Position numbers and translations under genes: made by a program
The notes under the pieces: generated by a model
What the model was told of the DNA's origin: nothing
The model's input: only the letters and a program-made list of their open reading frames with translations
Database searches by the model: none
DNA from: Fibrella aestuarina BUZ 2
GTDB lineage: Bacteria; Bacteroidota; Bacteroidia; Cytophagales; Spirosomataceae
Length of the DNA stretch: 64,000 nucleotides
NCBI RefSeq assembly: GCF_000331105.1
Contig: NC_020054.1
Coordinates: 5,580,903 to 5,644,902, forward strand
Direction of reading: 5' to 3'
Shown here: positions 43,899-60,094 of the stretch, piece by piece
How the letters are laid out: each line of letters begins with the position of its first letter
Position numbering within the stretch: position 1 is the stretch's first letter

Positions 43899-46800
43899 CT
43901 ACTCAATCAACAGTTTCTGCACGTACACATCAGCCCCACTTTCCACCCGAATCAGGTACGTTCCGGCGGGGGCATCGGGCAAGAGTAGCGGCGATTCGGT
44001 TGCCTGCTGCACGGTTTGCCGCTTATGAACCAGCCCCCGCAAATCGATCAGTTGCACGGTTCCGGTGGTGGGCCGGGCAAACTGAAGCGTCACCTTCCCA
44101 CGAGCGGGGTTGGGCCAGAGCCTGAAGTGAGCCGCCGGTTCAAACTGGGTGGCCAGCAAGACGAGCGTGGTGCCCGAAGCCGTGGCCGCCGCCGACTGGG
44201 TTTTATCGCCGAAGGCCGTCAGCCGGTATTGGTAGGTGGTGCTGGGCGACAAACCGGCATCGACATACTGCGTGGTCCCTGCGTCGACGCGCGTCGTGTA
44301 GCTGTAGGCTGATTCGCCCGTTTTGCGGCGTTCGAGCCAGTAGTAGGCCGCGCTGGGCACGGGGTCCCAACGGAGCCGCAGCGTATCGAAGGCCACAGCT
44401 GTTGCACTGAGCGCGGGGGTGCTCAGCAGCGCAGGAGTTTGGGCGGTTTGGGTGCCGTAGGGCGATTCGGTCCGGTCGCCCAACGCCCGAAGCCGGTAGG
44501 TGTAGCTAGTGCCGGGGGCCAGCAGCGTATCCCGCACAGCGCTGACGCCCGCGCCATACGTACCCACGGTCTGGAAGGATTGCCCGGCGGCCATCCGCTC
44601 TAGTTGATACGACGTCGCCGCGGGCACTGACGCCCAGCCCAGCCGCAGGGCGTTGTTGTACAGCACCGTCACCGACAGCACCGGCGTGCTCAGCAGGGTC
44701 GTGGTGGTGGCGCTTGTTACCCCGTACACCGATTCGGACAGGGGGCTTTTTGCCTTCACCCGGTACGCATAGGCCGTTCCCGGTGCCAGCGCCGTATCGA
44801 CCAGCGTGGTCACGGTGGGGCCATACGAGCCGATTACGCGGTAAGCCTGTCCGTCGGTCATGCGTTCGAGTTGGTAGGCCGTGGCGTTGGGCACCGCCAT
44901 CCAGGCCAGCCGGATGGCATTCGTATACACAACCGTACTGCTCATCGTGGGTGTGGCCAGCAGGCCGGGCGTCTGGGCATCGGCGCGCACGATGGGCGAT
45001 TCGGTGCGGTCGCCGAAGGCTTGTAGCTGGTAGGTATACGTCGTACCCGGCTGCAAACCGGCGTCGCTCACCGCCGTTACCGACGCCTCGAACGTACCCA
45101 GCGCGACCAGCGCCGACGTACCGGTTTTGCGCCACAGCGCGTAGTGGGTGGCGTTGGCAACGGGTTTCCAGCTTACCAGGAGTGCGTCATTGAACTGGGG
45201 CGCCACGGTTAGTTCGGGGGTGGGCAGGTAGGCGGGCGTTTGCACCGTCACCTCCGCGTAGGGCGAGTCGGTGAAGCGGCCGGTTGCTTTGAGCCGGTAC
45301 GTATAGCGCTGCCCAGCCACCAACAGGCTATCCTGGAACAGAAGCGTTGCGGGCGGGAGCGTGGCCACAGCCGTGAAGCTGGTTTCGGCCGTTGTCCGCC
45401 GTTCGAGCACATAGCGTTGGGCATCGGCGATGGCGTTCCAATGGAGGCGCACGGCGGTAGCATAGGTGGCGGTGGCCTGCAACTCGGGTGTTGTCAACAC
45501 GGCCGGCGTCTGCACGTCGACCTGCGCGTAGGCCGATTCATCGTCGCGCCGGATGGCTTTTACCCGGAACGCGTAAACAGCGCCGGGCGGCAGATTTTCC
45601 ACCACAAACGCCTGTTGGTCGCGGGGCAGTTGGGCCAGCGTCGCGAAGGATGAGGCCGACGGCGCTTTTGCCTCAAACACATAGCCAGTCGCCCCCGCCA
45701 CGGCCGACCACGTCAGCCGCACGGAGGACGCCGATACTACGGATGCCGACAGCGACGGCGTAGCCACGGTGGGTACGTCGGATGGCCCATTGGCGGCGAT
45801 GGGTACGTCCAGAAATGACAGCGCCCGCAGGCCCCGTTTGTTGGTCAGGTACGGGCCGCGGTACGGGTAGTCGGGCTGTTGGTTGGTATAGGTAGCGGGC
45901 AGGTACGTTAGCTTGCTGGCACCCGAGGGGCCGTTTAGTTTCAGAATGATCCGGTTGTCTTCGGCCCGGCCACTCTGCACGCTACCCGCCTGCCCGTCGA
46001 GGTACAGAAACTGGGTTAGTTTCAGGCTGCCGTGCCCGTCGGTCCAGTTCATGCGTTGACCGGGGTTGAACTGAAGCGTGATTTCGTCGCGGGCGGCGGT
46101 TGAGTAATAGGCCTGCCGCAGGTTGGGCGCGTCGATGTTGTCCTGATCGGGATCGTTGTAAAAATCACGGCCAATCAGGCGGGCCACTTCCATGGCATTC
46201 TGGTCGTAACCAGCGTCGGAGTAATGAAGCCCGTCGAAACCCTCCGTTCCCACCGAGGCCACCACCTGAATGTCGGGGTAAGTACGGGGCAGGGTGCGCT
46301 GCGACTCACGCACGAACGGGGCCGCCCCCACCGCCGGGTCGATGATGTCGATCTGGTACACGTAAAACTGCTTCACCGACGGCACATCAGTTTTCAGCTG
46401 CTGGTAATAGCGCCCAAAGCCACCGAGCCAGTCGGTACTTTCGCCGTAGCCTTCGGTTTCGCCCTGCCGATACACCCAGGCCGTCACGGCGTTGGCCACG
46501 CCCGCTTTTTGCAGCCGGTAGAGCAGCCGCCCGTAACCGGTGGTCAGATCGGTAGGGTTTGTGGCCGTGCGTATGGCCTGCTCGTTCATCGACGACCAGT
46601 GCATGGCCCCGTTGATGAGGCAGGTGGGGATACCGTATTTCTCCAGTATGTATTGCTGAATGCCAAACCCGAGGTTACCCACGTTCTGCGTGTAGAGCGT
46701 CTGGTTCGACAGGGCCCAGGCGGTATCGGCCGGGTTGTACACGCCTTTGCCGTAGTTCTCACTGATGACGCCAAAGGTGCGGCAGAATTCGTTGGTACGG

Positions 46801-47255
46801 GTGTCGCGGAAAAAGGCCCCGGCATTGGACTGCCCCGCCAGCACAAACACATCGCCCGCCACGATATTGGTGCGCGTGACCACGTTGACCGAGTCGGTGC
46901 CTTTCCAGAGTGTCACGCTCACATCATATTCAGCTTTTTCAGCCCGGATGGGCAGCGGGTCGATCTGGAACGCCGCGCTGTTGCCGGCATACGTTAGCGG
47001 CACCCGGCGAGACGCAATCGGTTGTTTGTTCCGAAAGAGCCGGACCGAAAGGGCTTCCCAACCGGCCTCCTCAACTCGCCCTGCTACCGGGATCAGCGCT
47101 GTGCTCTGCGCATTACGCGGGTATAGCTGGTAAGGTTGGGGTAACTGCTGGAATGCCACCGGCCCGATGCGTTGCGCCTGACTCGTCAGACTGAGCAAAC
47201 TGACCCACCAGAAAAAGACAAGTTTAGTTATAGACAGGCTGTAAAACTGGTTCAT
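43899..47255 (-). CDS. SASA-family esterase with six FN3 repeats and T9SS sorting domain
   Basis: The 1118-residue protein starts with a signal peptide (about 1-28). An SASA/CE6-like esterase domain follows: LAGQSNAG with Ser143, VYRQGETEGYG, DGLHYSDAGY with Asp341/His344. The family deacetylates sialic acid or other sugars. From about residue 505 there are six tandem fibronectin type III repeats of ~88 residues, each starting near TPxLxA and ending near VQTPA. The last 75 residues (FRLWPNPARGKVTLQF ... YVQKLLIE) form a type A T9SS sorting domain, so it is probably exported and surface-attached or released. It is divergent from the PUL at 47.5 kb and likely works with it. Confidence 0.88.
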   Translation of the reverse strand: MNQFYSLSITKLVFFWWVSLLSLTSQAQRIGPVAFQQLPQPYQLYPRNAQSTALIPVAGRVEEAGWEALSVRLFRNKQPIASRRVPLTYAGNSAAFQIDPLPIRAEKAEYDVSVTLWKGTDSVNVVTRTNIVAGDVFVLAGQSNAGAFFRDTRTNEFCRTFGVISENYGKGVYNPADTAWALSNQTLYTQNVGNLGFGIQQYILEKYGIPTCLINGAMHWSSMNEQAIRTATNPTDLTTGYGRLLYRLQKAGVANAVTAWVYRQGETEGYGESTDWLGGFGRYYQQLKTDVPSVKQFYVYQIDIIDPAVGAAPFVRESQRTLPRTYPDIQVVASVGTEGFDGLHYSDAGYDQNAMEVARLIGRDFYNDPDQDNIDAPNLRQAYYSTAARDEITLQFNPGQRMNWTDGHGSLKLTQFLYLDGQAGSVQSGRAEDNRIILKLNGPSGASKLTYLPATYTNQQPDYPYRGPYLTNKRGLRALSFLDVPIAANGPSDVPTVATPSLSASVVSASSVRLTWSAVAGATGYVFEAKAPSASSFATLAQLPRDQQAFVVENLPPGAVYAFRVKAIRRDDESAYAQVDVQTPAVLTTPELQATATYATAVRLHWNAIADAQRYVLERRTTAETSFTAVATLPPATLLFQDSLLVAGQRYTYRLKATGRFTDSPYAEVTVQTPAYLPTPELTVAPQFNDALLVSWKPVANATHYALWRKTGTSALVALGTFEASVTAVSDAGLQPGTTYTYQLQAFGDRTESPIVRADAQTPGLLATPTMSSTVVYTNAIRLAWMAVPNATAYQLERMTDGQAYRVIGSYGPTVTTLVDTALAPGTAYAYRVKAKSPLSESVYGVTSATTTTLLSTPVLSVTVLYNNALRLGWASVPAATSYQLERMAAGQSFQTVGTYGAGVSAVRDTLLAPGTSYTYRLRALGDRTESPYGTQTAQTPALLSTPALSATAVAFDTLRLRWDPVPSAAYYWLERRKTGESAYSYTTRVDAGTTQYVDAGLSPSTTYQYRLTAFGDKTQSAAATASGTTLVLLATQFEPAAHFRLWPNPARGKVTLQFARPTTGTVQLIDLRGLVHKRQTVQQATESPLLLPDAPAGTYLIRVESGADVYVQKLLIE

Positions 47256-47465
47256 TCAGGTTACTAAAGTCGAGTAAATGTTTCTGCTAAATAAACCTAC
47301 GATTACATAGCCACCTTAGATCCTTTTGGTCCTTTGCGTTTAAAATTGATTAAAGCGCCTCTGTTGCTCCCGAAACCGCCCATAAACTAATCAGAAAAAA
47401 AAGAGCCCAAAGCAGTAATGGTTTTGCGCCATAGTACTTGTCTATGGAAAAATAGACCAATTCAC

Positions 47466-47471
47466 AGGAGG
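47466..47471 (+). promoter_or_regulatory. Shine-Dalgarno sequence deciding the sigma factor start
   Basis: AGGAGG lies 3 bases before the ATG at 47475, a strong ribosome-binding site in a phylum that often does without one. It favours 47475 over the in-frame ATG at 47418 for the ECF sigma gene. Confidence 0.6.
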
Positions 47472-47474
47472 GCG

Positions 47475-48131
47475 ATGGCTACGAATCAGGCAGATCGACA
47501 GGGCAGACCAGTCCCGCTACGCATGGCGAATGAGGAGCCCGAGGAGGCCGTTGCGCCAGACTCCGAGGTGTTTATCCGTAACACGTTTGCCACCGACCCG
47601 CGGCTGGGCTGCGAGCTGCTGTTCCGGCTGTACTATCAGCCCCTGTGCAGTCACGCCGTCCGGTTTGTGGGCGCGCGCGACGTAGCCCAGGACCTGGTGT
47701 CGGAGGTATTCTGCCGGTTCTACACCAATCAGGTGTTTGCCACCATCACCACCTCCTACCGGGCTTATCTCTACAAGACGATCCGGCATCAGGCCTACAA
47801 CTACCTGCGTTGGGAAGTGAGCCGACAAGTTGACCTGACCTCGGCCGAAGGCTTTTCGACGGGAGAGTCGCAGCAGCCCGACAACGTTACTCAGTATGAG
47901 GAACTGTACCAGGACGTTGAGGCGGCCATCAACTCGCTGCCGTTGCAACGGCGGAAAATCTACCTCATGCACCGCTTCGAAGGGAAGAAATACGGCGAAA
48001 TCGCCGACGAACTGCACCTGGCTCCCAAAACGGTCGAATCCCAAATTCGGAAGGCCAGCCATTTTCTGCGCGACCTGCTGCGGACCAAGTGGACCCTGTC
48101 GCTCCTCACCCTGTTAACGCTCTCTGTATGA
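47475..48131 (+). CDS. ECF RNA polymerase sigma factor (PUL type)
   Basis: The 218-residue protein has sigma region 2 (LLFRLYYQPLCSHAVRFVG, AQDLVSEVFCRFY) and region 4 (LPLQRRKIYLMHRFEGKKY, APKTVESQIRKA), the layout of FecI-like sigma factors in Bacteroidota. Its stop overlaps the FecR start by four bases (ATGA). By family it directs RNA polymerase to the downstream SusC operon when the outer-membrane receptor signals through FecR. Confidence 0.93.
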   Translation: MATNQADRQGRPVPLRMANEEPEEAVAPDSEVFIRNTFATDPRLGCELLFRLYYQPLCSHAVRFVGARDVAQDLVSEVFCRFYTNQVFATITTSYRAYLYKTIRHQAYNYLRWEVSRQVDLTSAEGFSTGESQQPDNVTQYEELYQDVEAAINSLPLQRRKIYLMHRFEGKKYGEIADELHLAPKTVESQIRKASHFLRDLLRTKWTLSLLTLLTLSV

Positions 48132-49171
48132 ACACCACTGTCAGCCACGAGCTTCTGTTCGACTACTTTGCCGGGCGGGTGACGGCCCTGCAACGGGAAA
48201 CGATTGCCGACTGGCTCCGCGACCCTGCCAACGAAGAAACGTTTTACCGCTGCCTCGACGAATGGGAGCGCCGCAAACCCCAATACATTGCCGACCTGAC
48301 CGCCGCGCTGCCCACCTACCGCGCTTTTCTGGAACAGACTCCACCCGGCACCGTGGCCGCCACGGCCGAACCGCCGCCAACGGCAGTGCCGTTTCAGGCC
48401 ATTCGCCGCAGTTGGTTTTCCCGGAGCGGGCTCATTGCAGCGTCGGTGGCGCTGGCGTTGCTGGCAGGCGGCTGGCTATTACGCGATCACCTGCTGTACC
48501 AGACCATTCAGACCGCCTACGGCGAAACCCGGTCGCTGCAACTGGCGGATGGCAGCACGGTGGTGCTCAACGCCAACTCCTCGTTGCGGGTGCCCCGGTT
48601 CGGCTTCGGGAAAGCGATCTGGGGCGAAAAGAGCCGCCACGTACAGCTGACAGGCGAAGCCAATTTTGCCGTCGTTCACACGCCCGACGACCAGCGGTTT
48701 GTGGTGCACACGGCCAAAGGGCTCGACGTGGTGGTGCTGGGCACGGAGTTTACGGTGTTTGCCCGCCCCCGCGAAACCAAGGTGGTGCTGGCCAAGGGTA
48801 AGGTGCTGGTAAACTACCCCACGTCGGCCCGGAGAACGGAGCAGTTGACCCTCAAACCCGGCGACGTGGTGGCCCTCGACAGTGGCGGCCGGCTCAAGCG
48901 CGCCACGACCCCCAAACCCCGCGACTACGCAGCCTGGCAACGGCACGAATTCATTTTCAACAACACGTCTCTGCGCGAGGTGGGCCAGCTGCTCACCGAC
49001 AACTATGGCCTTCAGGTACGTATCCTGGGCGACGAACTGGCCCGCCAGACCATCACCGGCTCGTTCCACGCCGAAAATGCCGACGAGCTGCTTCAGGCGA
49101 TTTCCGATGTGCTGGGTATCAACGTGGTGCGCCACGACCAGCAGGTAGTGCTTAACGATAACAACGCATAA
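48128..49171 (+). CDS. FecR-family anti-sigma factor
   Basis: With the ATG at 48128 overlapping the sigma stop, the product is 347 residues. It has a cytoplasmic sigma-binding part, one membrane helix (SGLIAASVALALLAGGWLL, about 105-123), the periplasmic FecR domain (RSLQLADGSTVVLNANSSLR, VLGTEFTVFARP) and a DUF4974-like end (FNNTSLREVGQLLTDNYGLQ). It should hold the sigma factor until the STN domain of the receptor at 49183 contacts it. The next gene follows by 11 bases. Confidence 0.93.
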   Translation: MNTTVSHELLFDYFAGRVTALQRETIADWLRDPANEETFYRCLDEWERRKPQYIADLTAALPTYRAFLEQTPPGTVAATAEPPPTAVPFQAIRRSWFSRSGLIAASVALALLAGGWLLRDHLLYQTIQTAYGETRSLQLADGSTVVLNANSSLRVPRFGFGKAIWGEKSRHVQLTGEANFAVVHTPDDQRFVVHTAKGLDVVVLGTEFTVFARPRETKVVLAKGKVLVNYPTSARRTEQLTLKPGDVVALDSGGRLKRATTPKPRDYAAWQRHEFIFNNTSLREVGQLLTDNYGLQVRILGDELARQTITGSFHAENADELLQAISDVLGINVVRHDQQVVLNDNNA

Positions 49172-49182
49172 CCCCCAGTACC

Positions 49183-52100
49183 ATGAACCGACTCATTTAC
49201 TCACTCCGGCTGGTTTGTCCAATGGCTGCGCTCTGGCTCCTGAACGGGTCGCCGGGGATGGCGCAGGCGATGGCCCGCATGCACACGGTATCGGCCAATT
49301 CGATGGCGTTTTCAACGCAACAGATGACAGCGTCCCGCCAGTTGAAAGACGTACTGATCGAACTGAAATCGCACTACAACGTCGATATTCTGTTTGCCGA
49401 CCGGCTGGTAAACGGCCTGACGGTGTCGCAACGACTCGACTGGTCGGCGGCGCTGGAACGCAACCTCGACCTAGCCCTGCAACAGACGGGGCTACGGTAT
49501 AAAAAAGTAAAGGCGGGCACGTACCTGGTCACCGAACGCAAACTACCGAAGGTCGGCGCCCGATTTCCCGACGGCCAACCGCAACCCGAAGCCGACCCAC
49601 TAGCTTCCCAAACGGAGCGCAGCAACTTCGGCGAGATTGGCCAGCTGGCGCTCAAGCAGGTCGAGCGGGCGGCGGAGATCATCATCCGGGGGCGGGTAAC
49701 CGATGCCGAAAAAGGCGAAGCGCTGCCCGGCGTCAGCGTGGTCATCAAAGGCAGCGTGCGCGGCACCACCACCGACGGCAACGGGACTTTCCAACTCGGC
49801 GTGCCCGATCCGAACACGACGCTGGTGTTCAGCTTCGTTGGCTACGAGCGCCAGGAAGTGGCTGTCGGCAACCAAACGACCCTCAACGTCGCGCTGGCGG
49901 TGAGCGACAAAACTCTCAACGAAGTGGTGGTAGTGGGCTACGGGCAGGTAAAGAAAAGCGACCTGACGGGCTCGGTGGCGACGGTGCCGGTGGACGAAAT
50001 CCGGAAGGTGGCCGTTACCTCGCTCGATCAGTCGTTGCAGGGCCGGGCCGCCGGGGTGCAGATCACCCAGAACTCAGGCGCGCCAGGCGGCTCAACCACC
50101 ATCCGAATCCGGGGTGGCAACTCCATCCAGGGCGACAACGAACCGCTGTATGTGATCGACGGTATTCCGTTTAAAAACGACGGGGCGGGCAGCGGCTCAA
50201 GCTTCAACGTCCTCAGCACGCTCAACCCCAACGACATCGAGAGTATTTCGGTCCTGAAAGACGCCTCGTCAACGGCCATCTACGGCTCACGCGGGGCCAA
50301 CGGTGTGGTGATCATCACAACCAAACGGGGTAAGGCAGGAAAATCGACCATCAACCTCGATGCGTATTACGGCATTCAAACCGTGCGGCGCAAATACCCC
50401 GTACTCAACGGCCGCGAATACGCCCAGTTTGTCAACGACGCCAACACCAACGAAGGCCGCGCCCCCGTTTACACGCAGGCGCAGGTCGACGCGTTTGGCG
50501 AAGGCACCGACTGGCAAAACGAAATTTTTCGGCAGGCCCCCATCCAGAACTACCAACTCTCGTTCAGCGGGGGCGACGAACGTACCCAGTATGCCATTGG
50601 CGGCGGGTATTTCCGGCAGGGCGGCGTGGTGGTCAACTCCGATTTCGACCGGTATTCGTTCCGCATTAACCTGGACCGCAAGCTGACCAACCGCATCAAG
50701 ATCGGCAACAGCCTGACCGTCAGCCGGACCGTCACGAACCAGTCGCGCACCGATGGCGATCTGGGCAGCGCGGGGCTGGTGACCATCGCGGCGCTGCAAT
50801 TCCCGCCCATCCTGCCTGTTTACAACGCCGATGGCAGCTACCTGCTCGGGGCCTCGAACTTCACGGCCGACAACCCGGTGGCGCTGGCCCGCGAGAGCCG
50901 CAACCGCAACACCGCCTTCCGGGCGTTTGGCAATGTCTTCGGCGATTACCAGATCATCGACGGTCTGAACCTGCGGGTGCTGCTGGGGGTCGACGCCATT
51001 CTGCAGAAGCAGGACAACTACCTGCCCCGCTCGGTGTCGAGTGGGCTGGCGCAGGGCGGTGCCGGCTCCATCGCCAACGGGCAGGCGGTTACGTGGCTCA
51101 ACGAAAACCTGCTGACCTACAACCGCACCATCAACACGGTGCACAGCATCGGGGCGCTGGTGGGCTTCACGCAGCAGGCCAACCGCTCGGAAAGCAGCAC
51201 GGCAGCGGCGCGTAGTTTCGTCAACGACAACCTCAGCTCGGGCAATCTGGGCTCGGCAGCGGTACCCTTGTCGCCCTCGTCAGGCATCGGCACCTGGGGC
51301 TTGCAATCCTATCTGGCGCGGGTCAACTACGGCTACAAAGACAAATACCTGCTCACGGCCAGCATCCGGGCCGACGGGTCGTCGCGCTTTGGGGCCAACA
51401 AGCGGTATGGCTATTTCCCGTCGGCAGCCCTAGCGTGGCGGGTGAGCGAAGAAGCGTTCCTGAAAAACGCCCGCGCCCTGAGCGATCTGAAGCTGCGGGC
51501 CACCTACGGGTCAACCGGCAACCAGGACGGCATCGGCAACTACCCGGCCTATTCGCTGCTGGGTACGCAGAACTACGTCTTCGGCAATGCCGTCGCCACG
51601 GGTATTGGCCCAGCGCAGATTGCCAACCCCGACCTGGGCTGGGAGACCACCACACAGGCTGACCTGGGCATCGATCTGGGGCTGTTCAACAACCGTATCA
51701 CCATCACCGCCGACGCCTACCTGAAGCAGACAAAGAACCTGCTGCTGAGCGTGACCATCCCGAGCACGTCGGGCTATTCGAGCGCGATCAAGAACCTGGG
51801 CCGGGTCGAAAACAAAGGCCTCGAACTGGGCATTTCGTCGCGCAACGTGGACAAGGCGTTTAAGTGGAATACCGACCTGAACCTGGCCATGAACCGCAAT
51901 AAAGTGCTGGATATTGGCGGGGCGCCGCAGATTTTCGCCGGCCAGGTGGCCAACATCGGGCAGAACCTGAACTCGGGCATTATCCGCGTCGGCGAACCGC
52001 TGGGGTCGTTCTTTGGGTACGTTACCAACGGCCTCTACCAAACACCCGACGAACTAACGGCGCTGGCCGATCCGCAGGCCCGCAAGCCCGGCGACCGGAA

Positions 52101-52662
52101 ATACGCCGATCTGAACGGCGACAAGAAAATCGACGACAACGACCGTACCATCATTGGCCGGGCGCAACCCAAGCTGGTGGGCGGCCTGAACAACACCTTC
52201 AGCTACAAGGGCCTCGAACTGACCGTCTTCTTCCAAGGCGTTTACGGCAACAGCATCCTGAATGCCAACCGCTTCGAGCTGGAATACCTCAACGCCACCA
52301 CCAACCAGACCCGCGACATCCTGAACCGCTGGACGCCCACCAACACCAATACCGACGTACCCCGCGCCTCGACCACCCGCCCCGCCAACCGCATCTCGAC
52401 CCGGCAGATCGAAGATGGTTCGTATTTGCGGCTAAAGAACATTCAGCTGGCCTACAACCTGCCGTCGGCGGCGGTGCGGGCGCTGAATATCCAGTCGCTA
52501 CGGGTGTATGTGGCCGCCCAGAACTACCTGACGTTTACGAACTACTCGGGCTACGACCCCGAGGTGAACCGCTTCGGGCAGGACGGCCGGAGCCAGGGCT
52601 TCGACTACGCCAGCTACCCCGCCGCCAAAACGATGCTGTTTGGCCTGAACGTCGGATTCTAA
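49183..52662 (+). CDS. SusC-like TonB-dependent receptor with STN signalling domain
   Basis: The 1159-residue receptor has a signal peptide, then an STN (secretin/TonB N-terminal) signalling domain at about 45-115. A carboxypeptidase-regulatory-like domain (IIRGRVTDAEKGEALPGVSV) and the SusC plug start (LNEVVVVGYGQVKKSDLTGS) follow. The plug continues IRIRGGNSIQGDNEPLYVID and SISVLKDASSTAIYGSRGA, and the barrel ends in FGLNVGF. SusC proteins import oligosaccharides or other large ligands with a SusD partner. The STN domain matches the sigma/FecR pair just upstream, so the receptor should control its own operon. Confidence 0.95.
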   Translation: MNRLIYSLRLVCPMAALWLLNGSPGMAQAMARMHTVSANSMAFSTQQMTASRQLKDVLIELKSHYNVDILFADRLVNGLTVSQRLDWSAALERNLDLALQQTGLRYKKVKAGTYLVTERKLPKVGARFPDGQPQPEADPLASQTERSNFGEIGQLALKQVERAAEIIIRGRVTDAEKGEALPGVSVVIKGSVRGTTTDGNGTFQLGVPDPNTTLVFSFVGYERQEVAVGNQTTLNVALAVSDKTLNEVVVVGYGQVKKSDLTGSVATVPVDEIRKVAVTSLDQSLQGRAAGVQITQNSGAPGGSTTIRIRGGNSIQGDNEPLYVIDGIPFKNDGAGSGSSFNVLSTLNPNDIESISVLKDASSTAIYGSRGANGVVIITTKRGKAGKSTINLDAYYGIQTVRRKYPVLNGREYAQFVNDANTNEGRAPVYTQAQVDAFGEGTDWQNEIFRQAPIQNYQLSFSGGDERTQYAIGGGYFRQGGVVVNSDFDRYSFRINLDRKLTNRIKIGNSLTVSRTVTNQSRTDGDLGSAGLVTIAALQFPPILPVYNADGSYLLGASNFTADNPVALARESRNRNTAFRAFGNVFGDYQIIDGLNLRVLLGVDAILQKQDNYLPRSVSSGLAQGGAGSIANGQAVTWLNENLLTYNRTINTVHSIGALVGFTQQANRSESSTAAARSFVNDNLSSGNLGSAAVPLSPSSGIGTWGLQSYLARVNYGYKDKYLLTASIRADGSSRFGANKRYGYFPSAALAWRVSEEAFLKNARALSDLKLRATYGSTGNQDGIGNYPAYSLLGTQNYVFGNAVATGIGPAQIANPDLGWETTTQADLGIDLGLFNNRITITADAYLKQTKNLLLSVTIPSTSGYSSAIKNLGRVENKGLELGISSRNVDKAFKWNTDLNLAMNRNKVLDIGGAPQIFAGQVANIGQNLNSGIIRVGEPLGSFFGYVTNGLYQTPDELTALADPQARKPGDRKYADLNGDKKIDDNDRTIIGRAQPKLVGGLNNTFSYKGLELTVFFQGVYGNSILNANRFELEYLNATTNQTRDILNRWTPTNTNTDVPRASTTRPANRISTRQIEDGSYLRLKNIQLAYNLPSAAVRALNIQSLRVYVAAQNYLTFTNYSGYDPEVNRFGQDGRSQGFDYASYPAAKTMLFGLNVGF

Positions 52663-52681: not shown

Positions 52682-54109
52682 ATGAAAAAGATTCTCTCTA
52701 TTCTGTGTCTGCTGGTCTCGCTGACCGCCTGTGAGGTACTGGAACAAACCCCTGAAGCCACCTTCACACCCGCCAATTTTTACCGCAACGCCGACGATGC
52801 CCGCGCCGCCGTCAGTACCATCTACGACCCGCTGAACTCATCGAACCTGTACGCGCAGGTGATGTGGATTATTCAGGATCAGGCGACCGACGATGCCGAA
52901 TGGGGCAACGGCCGGTCGACAGCCAACCAGCCCAAAAACGACCTCGACAAATACACGTTCACGCCCGCTACAAGCACGTTTCAGTCGGTGTGGAGCACGG
53001 TGTATCAGGCGATTAACCGAGCCAACACGGTCATTGCCCGGGTACCCGCCATCCCGATGGACGACGCGCTGAAAAACCGGTTTATTGCCGAAGCCAAATT
53101 CATGCGCGGCTTTTACTACTTCACGCTGGTGCGGCTGTTTGGCGGTGTGCCGCTGCAACTCACCGAGACCACCTCGCTCGACAACCTGAACGTGGCGCGG
53201 GCATCGGTCGACGATGTGTATAAGCAGGTGATTCAGGATTTTACGGAAGCCGAAGCCGTCTTGCCGACGACCTACAGCGGTGCCGACCGGGGCCGGGCTA
53301 CGCAGGGCGCAGCCAAGGCGTTTCTGGCCAAAGTATACCTCACCCGGCAGGACTGGCCCCGCGCCGCCGCTAAAGCCAAGGAGGTAATAGACCTCGGCGT
53401 GTATGACTTGTGGGCCACGTTCGGCGAAGCGTTTCTGATCGCCAACAAAAACGGCAAAGAAGCCGTCTTCGAGATGCAGGCGCTGGGCGGCGGCGTGGGC
53501 GAAGGCAGCTGGATGCAGGGCTACATGCGCCCCAACTTCGACCGCGTCAATGGCGTAGCGGGCTTCGGGGATGACCCGGCCACGGAAAACCTGTATAAAA
53601 CCTACAGCGCCGCCGACAAACGCCGCGACGTCACCATCAAGCTGTATTCGGCCACCACCAACCCGGCAGCGCCCGCCAGCGTGCTGTTTCCTGGGTACGT
53701 CTACAAATACCTCGACCCGTCGGCCACGGCCAACGGTGAAGGCAGCAACAACTTCCCGATCATCCGCTACGCCGACGTGCTGCTGATGTATGCCGAAGCG
53801 CTGAACGAGCAGGGCGCGGGCAATGCCGACGCCTACACGGCCATCAACCGGATTCGCCGCCGGGCCGGGATCGCCGACCTGTCGGGATTGACGCAGGCCG
53901 AATTCCGCGAGGTCGTGCTGCTGGAACGGCGGCTCGAACTGGCTTTTGAAGGGCACCGGTGGTATGATCTGGTTCGGACCAAACGACTCATCAGCGCCAT
54001 GAAGGCCCAAAACCCCAGCATTCTGGTCGAAGACCGGCATTACCTGCTGCCCATCCCTCAAACCGAGCGCGACGTCAACCCCGCCCTGACCCAAAATCCG
54101 GGATATTGA
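52682..54109 (+). CDS. SusD/RagB-family outer membrane lipoprotein
   Basis: The 475-residue protein has a lipoprotein signal with Cys17 (LVSLTAC) and the SusD pattern: TPANFYRNADDARAAVSTIY, a tetratricopeptide-like helical core (FMRGFYYFTLVRLFGGVPL), NFPIIRYADVLLMYAEALNE and RRLELAFEGHRWYDLVRTKR. It ends in LLPIPQTERDVNPALTQNPGY. It binds the ligand at the cell surface and forms the lid of the SusC barrel. It starts 19 bases after SusC. Confidence 0.95.
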   Translation: MKKILSILCLLVSLTACEVLEQTPEATFTPANFYRNADDARAAVSTIYDPLNSSNLYAQVMWIIQDQATDDAEWGNGRSTANQPKNDLDKYTFTPATSTFQSVWSTVYQAINRANTVIARVPAIPMDDALKNRFIAEAKFMRGFYYFTLVRLFGGVPLQLTETTSLDNLNVARASVDDVYKQVIQDFTEAEAVLPTTYSGADRGRATQGAAKAFLAKVYLTRQDWPRAAAKAKEVIDLGVYDLWATFGEAFLIANKNGKEAVFEMQALGGGVGEGSWMQGYMRPNFDRVNGVAGFGDDPATENLYKTYSAADKRRDVTIKLYSATTNPAAPASVLFPGYVYKYLDPSATANGEGSNNFPIIRYADVLLMYAEALNEQGAGNADAYTAINRIRRRAGIADLSGLTQAEFREVVLLERRLELAFEGHRWYDLVRTKRLISAMKAQNPSILVEDRHYLLPIPQTERDVNPALTQNPGY

Positions 54110-54146: not shown

Positions 54147-54863
54147 ATGAAACGCCGGACTTTCCTACAAACGACCCTCGCCCTGGCGCCTTATGGTGCC
54201 GGGGCAGTTGGTCCTTTCACGCAACAACCCGTTGGCGAGTCGGTGATCATCAATGCGGGCGTGGGCGGCAACAACACCGTCGACCTGCTGGCGCGTATCG
54301 AGGCTGACTGTCTGGCGCACCGGCCCGAGCTGACCATCCTGATGATCGGTACCAACGATGTCAACAGCCGGAAGCACGTACCTGTTGACGCCTACGGGCA
54401 GAACCTGCGGCAGCTTTGCACCAAACTCAAAGCCGCCCGCAGCGAGGTCGTCCTGATGACCATACTGCCGGTATACGAACCTTACCTGATGACGCGCCAC
54501 GACCCCAATTTTTACAAACCCGAGGGGCACCCCGCCCGCACAAGGCAGCTAAACCAGCTGGTTCGCGACACGGCTACGTCGTTTGAGTTTCCCTGGCTCG
54601 ATATGCACCATGTCTTCGCGTCGGTGGGCAACATCGGGCTCGACCGGAGCAGCCTGCTGAAAAACGAAGCCAACAGTGGCAAAACTGACGGTGTTCACCC
54701 CACCCCCGACGGCTACCGGCTCATGGCTGTTACGCTGTACACCTTTCTGGCCCAACGGCAATTGCTCAGAAACCGAATCGTGTGCTTCGGCGACAGCATC
54801 ACCCGAGGCGATGCCGATGACCAAACGTACCCAGCCTACCTACAGCGGCTGATCGCCGGGTAG
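54147..54863 (+). CDS. Circularly permuted SGNH/GDSL hydrolase
   Basis: The 238-residue exported protein has an N-terminal RR-containing signal (MKRRTFLQTTLALAPYGAGA). It then runs directly into what is normally the second SGNH block, VIINAGVGGNNTVDLLAR (33-50), then MIGTNDVN (block III, 66-73) and KTDGVHPTPDGY (block V, Asp181/His184). The first block, RIVCFGDSITRGD (210-222, Ser217), with the following YPAYLQRLIAG, comes last and is followed by the stop. All catalytic blocks are present but in rotated order. Only 37 bases separate it from susD, so no lost N-terminal block can be upstream. Members are esterases or acetyl-esterases; here it probably deacylates the PUL substrate (inference). 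Confidence 0.85.
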   Translation: MKRRTFLQTTLALAPYGAGAVGPFTQQPVGESVIINAGVGGNNTVDLLARIEADCLAHRPELTILMIGTNDVNSRKHVPVDAYGQNLRQLCTKLKAARSEVVLMTILPVYEPYLMTRHDPNFYKPEGHPARTRQLNQLVRDTATSFEFPWLDMHHVFASVGNIGLDRSSLLKNEANSGKTDGVHPTPDGYRLMAVTLYTFLAQRQLLRNRIVCFGDSITRGDADDQTYPAYLQRLIAG

Positions 54864-57771: not shown

Positions 57772-58521
57772 TTAGCGCACGTCGGCGTACCAGCGTTTTA
57801 GCTTGGCGGGCGGGTAGCCGATGCCCCACAAAAAGCCGATGGTCAGGTAAATGGCGTTGGCTTTCCAAAACCCCCACTTCGCCACCCGCCGATCCGACGA
57901 TTCGACTAGCCGCCCCACCTGCCGAACGCGCCCGTAGCGCACCAGCCTGAGCAGCAGATCGGCCTCTTCCATAATCGGCATGTCATCGGCATAGCCACCG
58001 ATGGCCAGAAACTGCTCGCGCCGGCAAAAGATGGCCTGATCGCCGAAAAGCAGCCGCGCCCCACGAAAGAAAAACAGGTGCGGCCTGAACAGCAGCGGGG
58101 CGTAGTAGGTTTTCAGGAAATTGTGCAGCGACGTCAGCCAACGGGTTTTCGTGGGGCCACGCATGATCGAGATGAAGCCGCCCGCCGCTACTGTTGGGCA
58201 AGCCAGCGTTTGGCCAATCACCGTCAGCGCATCGTCGGGCAGGATGGTATCGGCGTGTAAAAAGCAGAGCAGATCGCCCTGCGCGCGCTGGGCTGCCCCA
58301 TTCATCTGCGTAGCCCGCCCCAGCCGATCGCAGCATAGCAGGTGCAGGTTGGGCCAATCGGTCTGGGCCGCGCGCACAAGGGCCAGTGTCTGGTCGGTGC
58401 TTCCTCCATCGGCTACCCACACCTCAACGGGCTCGGGGCAGAGCTGTCGCACTAAACGCAGGGTGCGGGGCAAATCGGCCGCCTCATTAAGCGTAGGAAT
58501 GATAATCGATACAGACACCAT
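57772..58521 (-). CDS. Glycosyltransferase, GT2 fold (TIGR04283-like)
   Basis: The 249-residue protein opens with VSIIIPTLNEAADLPRTL, then VWVADGGSTDQTL and CFLHADTILPDDAL (the DxD position). RGARLLFGDQAIFCRREQFL and MEEADLLLRL follow, a pattern of the TIGR04283 glycosyltransferase group. A hydrophobic C-terminal helix (AIYLTIGFLWGIGY) may associate with the membrane. Its ATG overlaps the ATG of the divergent HMG-CoA reductase within CATG at 58519-58522. Confidence 0.88.
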   Translation of the reverse strand: MVSVSIIIPTLNEAADLPRTLRLVRQLCPEPVEVWVADGGSTDQTLALVRAAQTDWPNLHLLCCDRLGRATQMNGAAQRAQGDLLCFLHADTILPDDALTVIGQTLACPTVAAGGFISIMRGPTKTRWLTSLHNFLKTYYAPLLFRPHLFFFRGARLLFGDQAIFCRREQFLAIGGYADDMPIMEEADLLLRLVRYGRVRQVGRLVESSDRRVAKWGFWKANAIYLTIGFLWGIGYPPAKLKRWYADVR

Positions 58522-60094
58522 GTTTCAGTTTATACCGGGCGTGCTGCTTAAACAGCTATACACACGCAGTAGCTTACAAAACACGCCAACGGGCATTACG
58601 TTCACGCTCAAAAACCGGCTGGCCGACGCCCAGTTTACCGGCCTGCAGCGCGCCCGCATCGACGGGATCGACTACCCGGCCGAGGCCTTTCAGCTTATTC
58701 CCGACACGGGTGAGGCGGTCACGGTAGCCGCGATTTCACCGGCACGGCCCCTCCCCTTTCCGTTGCGCCAGTCGGTGCGGGTGGTGGCGCAGACGGCCCA
58801 ACTGGACCCGGGTCTGCATCAGCTGGAAATTACGCTGCATACCAAACCGTTTGGCACCATCACGTTGCGCGTCGACGATGAGCTACAGCCCGGCCTGTTC
58901 GGTGAAGTCGACGAGCTAACCGCTCCCGCTACCCTAAGCATTCCCCGGCAGGCCGACGATTACACGCCCGAAGCCGTCGCCGAGCGGCAACGCTACCTGG
59001 CGGAACGTACCCAGACGCAGCCGCAACACCTTTTCAAAGCGTCGTTTGCGCCCGATACCGTGCGGCGGAACATCGAACACTTCGTAGGGGTAGCGCAGGT
59101 GCCCATCGGGCTGGCCGGGCCGTTGCGCGTGAACGGTGAATGGGCACAAGGCGACTTTCTGATTCCGCTGGCCACTACCGAAGGTACCCTGGTGGCGAGC
59201 TACAACCGGGGCATCAAGCTCATCAACGGCAGCGGGGGCGTTACCTGTACCGTTCAGGACGACGCCATGCAGCGTGCGCCCGTTTTCGAGTTTGCCGACG
59301 CCCGCGCCGCCCGTGATTTTGTCCGCTGGATCGAGGCGCGACAGCCACAGCTAGCCGCCGAAGCACAGACGACGTCCAGCTACGCCAAACTGCGTTACGT
59401 GGACACGTACCTGAACGGCAAACTGGCGTTTCTGCGCTTTGGCTACACCACCGGCGATGCAGCGGGCCAGAACATGGTGACGAAAGCCACGCTGGCGGCC
59501 TGCAATTACATTCTTGAGCAGTACCCTGACGGGCAGATTCAGCACTTTTTTCTGGAATCGAACATGGCGACCGACAAGAAGCCGTCGCAGATCAACGTGC
59601 TGCGAACCCGCGGCAAACGGGTGACGGCCGAGGTTACGATTCCGCGCGCCCTGCTGATTCGGGAATTACAGGTGGAGCCTGAGCAGCTCCACCGGCATGC
59701 CCGCGTGGGGCAGGTGGGCGCGTGGCTGGCAGGCACCAACAACAACGGCCTGCATTCGGTGAATGGGTTGGCGGCGCTGTTTATCGCGACGGGTCAGGAT
59801 GTGGCCTGTCTGGCCGAATCGTCGGCGGCCATCGCCTACTCCGAGATCCTGCCCAATGGCGACCTGTATGGGTCGGTGACGCTGCCCTCACTGATTGTCG
59901 CTACGCACGGAGGCGGCACGGGTCTGCCTACTCAGCGCGAATGCCTCGAGTTGATGGATTGCTATGGACCGGGCCAAGTGATGAAGTTTGCCGAGATTGT
60001 GGCGGGTGTCATTGCGGCCGGAGAACTATCGCTGGCCGCCGCTATTTCCTCCCTCGACTGGGTGTCGAGTCATGAGGTGAAACGGAACGACTAA
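58520..60094 (+). CDS. Hydroxymethylglutaryl-CoA reductase
   Basis: From the ATG at 58520 the product is 524 residues. After a ~150-residue N-terminal region without a known domain comes the HMG-CoA reductase catalytic part: EHFVGVAQVPIGLAGPL, ATTEGTLVAS (Glu221), GDAAGQNMVT (Asp313), TDKKPSQIN (Lys354), THGGGTGLPTQRE and a C-terminal His518 (SSHEVKRND). These match the class I set that reduces HMG-CoA to mevalonate with NADPH. No other mevalonate pathway gene is in the window. The frame is open far upstream, but that part overlaps the divergent gene and looks non-coding. Confidence 0.9.
   Translation: MFQFIPGVLLKQLYTRSSLQNTPTGITFTLKNRLADAQFTGLQRARIDGIDYPAEAFQLIPDTGEAVTVAAISPARPLPFPLRQSVRVVAQTAQLDPGLHQLEITLHTKPFGTITLRVDDELQPGLFGEVDELTAPATLSIPRQADDYTPEAVAERQRYLAERTQTQPQHLFKASFAPDTVRRNIEHFVGVAQVPIGLAGPLRVNGEWAQGDFLIPLATTEGTLVASYNRGIKLINGSGGVTCTVQDDAMQRAPVFEFADARAARDFVRWIEARQPQLAAEAQTTSSYAKLRYVDTYLNGKLAFLRFGYTTGDAAGQNMVTKATLAACNYILEQYPDGQIQHFFLESNMATDKKPSQINVLRTRGKRVTAEVTIPRALLIRELQVEPEQLHRHARVGQVGAWLAGTNNNGLHSVNGLAALFIATGQDVACLAESSAAIAYSEILPNGDLYGSVTLPSLIVATHGGGTGLPTQRECLELMDCYGPGQVMKFAEIVAGVIAAGELSLAAAISSLDWVSSHEVKRND

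Follow-up and report, generated by a model that had tools for sequence, protein, structure and literature searches.

The window analysed here, a 64,000-nucleotide stretch of the Fibrella aestuarina BUZ 2 genome (contig NC_020054.1), carries a cassette in the order sigma factor, FecR, SusC, SusD, esterase and flavin adenine dinucleotide (FAD) oxidoreductase, whose esterase we read as a circularly permuted SGNH/GDSL enzyme. Its gene lies at 54147..54863 on the forward strand, as do all features below unless stated otherwise, and encodes 238 amino acids; the frame runs uninterrupted from an ATG at 54147 to a TAG stop ending at 54863, about 40 bp ahead of the next gene. The SGNH blocks follow one another in the order II-III-V-I. 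Block II (NAGVGGNN, residues 36-43, 54252..54275) closes the new first strand and holds the oxyanion Gly41, block III (GTNDVN, residues 68-73, 54348..54365) holds Asn70, block V (DGVHPTPDGY, residues 181-190, 54687..54716) holds Asp181 and His184, and block I (GDSIT, residues 215-219, 54789..54803) comes last with the nucleophile Ser217, 21 residues from the C-terminus. The original prediction had proposed this rotated order from the letters of the DNA, and each motif it quoted lies where it was placed, with Ser217, Asp181 and His184 correctly numbered. We assign the oxyanion glycine to G41 rather than G40 because G41 aligns with the block II glycine of the Enterococcus faecalis acylhydrolase 1yzf; it is conserved in canonical sequences too. 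Residues 205-238 (54759..54860), comprising a linker, a strand at 210-215, block I and then helices, are the counterpart of the N-terminus in ordinary SGNH enzymes. The new N-terminus carries the signal peptide that had been predicted, more exactly a Tat-like (twin-arginine translocation) signal beginning MKRRTFLQ (MKRRTFLQTTLALAPYGAGAVGPF, residues 1-24, 54147..54218), which is modelled with a low predicted local distance difference test score (pLDDT).

The residues that define the superfamily (S217, G41, N70, H184 and D181) are conserved family-wide and the predicted fold is its three-layer alpha/beta/alpha arrangement; the usual order I-II-III-V with an N-terminal GDS is absent. The SGNH profile PF13472 matches the protein as it stands with 90.3 bits (cut-off 32.9) in two stretches, the main one joining protein residues 28-192 to profile positions 30-178, so the start of the profile, block I, is missing from it. 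Local profiles match blocks II to V and skip the block that has moved. Databases name the permuted proteins plainly as "SGNH/GDSL hydrolase" or "lysophospholipase L1-like esterase".

One would not expect to find block I at the C-terminus of a GDSL enzyme, and it is conceivable that an assembly error, frameshift or fusion displaced block I of a normal gene, which would also leave a main Pfam stretch of blocks II to V only. Homologues speak strongly against this. A first protein search returned 651 homologues, of which 120 were listed and, with the query, make up a first, Tat-like set of 121 proteins; in all 121, block V comes ahead of a GDS near the C-terminus, and the pattern for block I matches a single time, at that end. 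A second search, started from divergent members of whole genomes, gave 1219 matches at E<=1e-10, and 118 of the 120 listed were new, among them P0122, from the query locus L072. These 118 have the order III, V, I without exception, and none has a GDS within its first 80 residues, leaving no trace there of a leftover N-terminal GDS or a duplicated intermediate. All 238 homologues examined therefore share the order of the query, so the displaced block is due neither to chance nor to a broken gene or assembly error. With the frame open, the same order in independent genomes and the same six genes together at each of the 8 named genome loci, we reject an artefact as having practically no probability; the condition under which the prediction was to fail, a normal N-terminal GDS in relatives that had been lost here, is excluded among the relatives examined, and its view that the gene is not broken holds. 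The query is 91% identical to the homologue from Fibrella sp. WM1, 63-69% identical to those from named Larkinella and Spirosoma and 51-55% identical to those from named Chitinophaga, Dyadobacter and Telluribacter, and named sources in the second search include Pedobacter, Pontibacter, Sinomicrobium, Maribacter, Draconibacterium, Carboxylicivirga and Rhodohalobacter.

We then rotated the chain in silico, placing residues 205-238 ahead of the core. The rotated query matched PF13472 in a single stretch covering profile positions 1-178 of 178 with 102.4 bits, compared with 76.6 bits when the tail was shuffled and 75.2 bits for the core alone. The score of the best sequence match in the PDB, 1yzf, rose from 41.4 to 52.7 bits on rotation, in one stretch from block I through 1yzf residue 153. 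Rotation by script worked for 234 of the 239 proteins (the other five were left out), and a profile built from one third of these 234 was run on the open reading frames (ORFs) of the collected loci. Non-permuted proteins began in its first nine positions, in block I, in 29 of 39 rows (one at 0.0 bits), and 23 of the 29 reached position 208 or further. Rotated order outscored natural order in 20 of 20 canonical rows, a comparison that is partly circular because those rows had been selected as matching the rotated profile from end to end. The rotation test therefore indicates that the old N- and C-termini were joined and a new start opened between blocks I and II.

Structure models agree with this picture. 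AlphaFold2 models of two distant members reached pLDDT values of 89 and 96, and in both the tail is modelled as a strand followed by the serine helix. Structural alignment matched residues 26-208 with ordinary SGNH enzymes and left the tail unmatched in the rows listed; as exceptions, the VIA-align matches to 1z8h, 1vjg and 8zbc begin near the chain N-terminus and the 3mil_B range extends to model residue 238. The chains listed by Foldseek and VIA-align are ordinary SGNH proteins, which does not by itself exclude other families. The two family profiles found 36 and 44 PDB sequences, and in none of these did the best stretch span core and tail, so that no solved structure with the rotated order appeared among them; in 4tx1 and 4rw0 the family tail matched the N-terminus of the PDB chain. 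Homologue order, the rotation test and the two structure models together support the predicted circular permutation with joined termini.

Some results pull the other way. In ten of the 39 non-permuted rows the match to the rotated profile does not begin until position 41 or later, and coevolution gives weak, clade-dependent support for packing of the tail on strands beta2 and beta3: out of 24090 pairs, 47-214 takes rank 5 both overall and in the Tat-like set but falls to 5516 in the other clade, and at the offset expected for it the beta1-beta3 ladder does not reach significance. The beta2-beta1 ladder is joint highest of ten strand pairs, with no null value beside it. We do not rely on coevolution for the permutation.

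The models also bear on how the active site would be completed. A short linker followed by a C-terminal segment is typical of domain swapping, and the models are of single chains only, so the C-terminal beta1/GDS unit might complete the active site of a neighbouring subunit in a dimer or oligomer. Both single-chain models are confident over the tail, however (block means 88-98), and the linker has just about six residues; we consider a swapped arrangement unlikely. We favour assembly within one chain, in which the ancestral N-terminal unit (strand beta1, the GDS nucleophile and the first helix) would have moved to the C-terminus and become attached to the old last helix through that linker, and the new N-terminus with its Tat-like signal would open just ahead of the block II strand. 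The last-made part of the chain would then insert as beta1 and bring Ser217 to His184 and Asp181 and to the oxyanion hole of Gly41 and Asn70, a triad geometry suggested by fold and motifs. The chemistry should therefore be ordinary SGNH hydrolysis of acyl esters.

Conservation argues for a working catalyst. N70, D181, H184 and S217 are invariant in a 51-row alignment, with G41 at 90% or more. In a larger comparison of 119 first-set, 115 other-clade and 20 canonical rows, G41, N70, D181 and H184 stand at 100% in both clades, and G215, D216, S217 and T219 at 100% in the first set and 96% in the other clade. That the C-terminal GDSIT is regulatory or vestigial, leaving an inactive or differently acting SGNH scaffold, is in view of this conservation very unlikely.

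Other residues mark the permuted family. Arg117-His118 (54495..54500) is identical in 234 of 234 permuted rows; in 19 of 20 canonical rows these positions show Asn and a gap. Two residues ahead of GDS, Cys213 is present in 119 of 119 first-set rows and 110 of 115 other-clade rows (the remainder are gaps), a position occupied by Phe in 20 of 20 canonical rows. No row of the Tat-like set lacks Cys55 (54309-54311) or Cys213 (54783-54785); in the other clade Cys213 is retained and position 55 is mostly Val. The nucleophile may thus have a disulfide or a buried thiol close by.

The permuted family was observed in Bacteroidota (in the sense of GTDB) as two clades, with the query in the Tat-like one. 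A tree of 26 first-set and 30 other-clade rows (56 of the 234 permuted) with 20 canonical rows splits into three groups with one change each and support of 100/97, 96/84 and 98/97; the canonical sample is narrow and one canonical row sits on a very long branch. This topology would fit one permutation event and a later split into two clades. An RRxFL-like N-terminus occurs in 111 of 121 first-set proteins versus 0 of 118 in the other clade, of which 22 have a lipobox-like start. The host genome encodes TatC, so a twin-arginine motif and Tat machinery are found together, and the esterase would probably be exported by this route.

The family is rare and patchily distributed among the genomes sampled. 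Carriers number 25 of 200 genomes in the taxonomic family of the window, 10 of 147 and 3 of 150 in two other families, 3 of 395 in the class, 1 of 145 in another class and 4 of 395 in the phylum, where 4 of 395 also match the profile of the other clade. Each count takes in its centre genome. None of the 4 other sampled genomes of the genus had a match. Such absences are soft because the counts score only part of the first-look candidates.

We compared the esterase with canonical SGNH/GDSL enzymes of PF13472 (1yzf; AlAXEase 7ddy, an acetyl xylan esterase; Axe2 3w7v; Escherichia coli TesA 1ivn). It resembles them in predicted fold and in having all four blocks, whose GDS, G, N and DxxH are intact and which become collinear after rotation, and differs in its C-terminal block I, in a chain that opens ahead of the block II strand, and in Arg117-His118 and Cys213. 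The sialate O-acetylesterase of P. vulgatus (7pzg, 6njc) keeps the ordinary order: its Ser52 comes first, in a block I that reads GNS.

Circular permutation itself has precedents in the superfamily. In the parts of the sources available to us, AlgX, AlgJ, WssI and PatB1 are described as permuted SGNH proteins with the order H-S-G-N or a variant and are linked to polysaccharide acetylation (SGNH review, PMC9487903; Baker et al. 2014, PMC4148444; WssI, PMC10302187; OatA, PMC5697884). The esterase is thus like the AlgX family (AlgX, AlgJ; WssI), a natural permutation tied to polysaccharide acyl groups, and shares a permuted core with the DHHW family (Bacillus cereus PatB1). As far as those sources go, the AlgX family has the order H-S-G-N/Y/D, cut between blocks III and V, whereas the esterase has G-N-H-S, cut between I and II. 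AlgX and AlgJ, which act in polysaccharide acetylation, have a GTS block I, a DxH block V, a Tyr in block III and extra cap elements; PatB1 combines HSGN order with KDS, DxRY and TDHHW, where the esterase has GDSIT, NAGVGGN and DGVH.

These precedents raise the prospect that the protein is an O-acetyltransferase rather than a hydrolase. Its GDSIT, block III Asn and DxxH differ from the GTS, Tyr and DxH described for AlgX and AlgJ, and several neighbours in relatives are glycoside hydrolases or proteins of sugar-catabolism type, which leaves a transferase quite unlikely. Neither the ALGX nor the DHHW profile of Pfam matches it at E<=0.1, and we rejected membership in either family on its order (II-III-V-I, not V-I-II-III) and its GDSIT and DGVH. 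We found no published account of a G-N-H-S permutation in the parts of the open-access literature that our search covered. The permutation therefore appears to be separate from those of AlgX/AlgJ/WssI and PatB1 and undescribed, in a superfamily that is itself known.

To our knowledge, few natural circular permutations preserve all the catalytic motifs and also make up a broad family. The nucleophile strand is here the last part of the chain to be synthesised, and the family offers a direct system for the effect of chain order on folding, on Tat or Sec export and on esterase catalysis.

The gene neighbourhood hints at the kind of substrate. Upstream of the esterase lie an extracytoplasmic function (ECF)-type sigma factor (47418..48131, named by eye), a FecR-type anti-sigma factor (48089..49171), a SusC-like TonB-dependent transporter (49183..52662) and a SusD-like protein (52682..54109), and downstream lies a FAD-dependent oxidoreductase of PF12831 (54904..56559), the recurrent partner gene. 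Across the eight named loci with this cassette, identity is about 73-81% for SusC and SusD and about 79-84% for the oxidoreductase. A SusC/SusD pair stands directly upstream of the esterase in 19 of 34 loci drawn (L122 and L132, missed by the motif, are not among the 34). Several relatives have further neighbours: a pair of GH92 genes in L128, together with genes for a LacI regulator, a ROK protein and an MFS transporter; GH2, GH88 and GH130 in L130; an amidohydrolase, ROK, LacI and GlcNAc 2-epimerase in L073; and a DHDPS-family protein, a sodium:solute symporter and an enolase-superfamily enzyme in L123. Since these neighbours fit glycan catabolism, the reading we prefer is an exported esterase that acts on carbohydrate O-acyl, probably O-acetyl, groups. 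The original prediction had further suggested a type associated with polysaccharide utilization loci, which is partly borne out: a SusC/SusD pair adjoins the esterase in the window, no glycoside hydrolase was seen in the cassette, GH92, GH2, GH88 and GH130 genes lie near some relatives, and other relatives have no SusC/SusD next to them.

The commonest partner of the permuted esterase is the FAD oxidoreductase. Of 36 permuted loci, 28 have a PF12831-type gene no more than 2.5 kb away (23 of the 25 with an RR-type start, 5 of the 11 lacking one) and 26 have one within 1.5 kb, versus 0 of 37 other SGNH loci, in which 1.5 kb around the matched domain was considered; 32 of these controls are non-permuted rows of the rotated-profile run and the remaining five were unmatched there. 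The four oxidoreductase query proteins stem from 4 of the 36 permuted loci, and without these four the count within 1.5 kb is 23 of 32. A Fisher value for this enrichment is not a true probability because the loci are related. The host genome has 20 PF12831 matches, ten above the cut-off and three over the full profile, the cassette neighbour among those three. We found nothing useful on PF12831 in polysaccharide utilization in the parts of the open-access literature seen.

We are thus fairly confident that the protein is an exported, circularly permuted SGNH/GDSL serine esterase that probably deacylates a sugar imported by SusC/SusD. It would remove O-acyl, probably acetyl, groups from that sugar, and the neighbouring PF12831 flavoenzyme may act on the same substrate, which points to a combined esterase and flavin-oxidoreductase step in glycan use. 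Against such a role, the window's own cassette has no visible glycoside hydrolase, and 8 of the 36 permuted loci have no PF12831-type gene within 2.5 kb. The coupling in the cassette is a testable lead. A broader proposal, that a second, independent SGNH permutation founded a large, so far unrecognised esterase family in Bacteroidota and became half of an undescribed two-enzyme module that deacylates a sugar taken up through SusC/SusD and oxidises it by the PF12831 flavoenzyme, with Cys213 and Arg117-His118 as active-site residues, we put forward tentatively, at a little less than even chances.

Several observations concern the surroundings of these genes. The PF12831-type oxidoreductases beside permuted esterases are of several types, with two or three per locus in L124 and L127-L129. 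In L076 and L091 neither a SusC/SusD pair nor a FAD oxidoreductase adjoins the esterase; the neighbours there are a protein of 483/484 amino acids, with a redoxin-type domain in L076, and one of 873 amino acids that looks like a sensor kinase by eye. In the window, the cassette is adjoined on the reverse strand (43899-47255) by a gene for a protein of 1118 amino acids with fibronectin type III matches and a secretion-system sorting tail, whose N-terminus, with GQSNAG and GLHYSDAGY recognised by eye, resembles a sialate-O-acetylesterase-type domain in ordinary order. Beyond the cassette, a long ORF at 58121-60094 on the forward strand looks by eye like a hydroxymethylglutaryl-CoA reductase, and its over-long start overlaps an ORF at 57772-58521 on the reverse strand.
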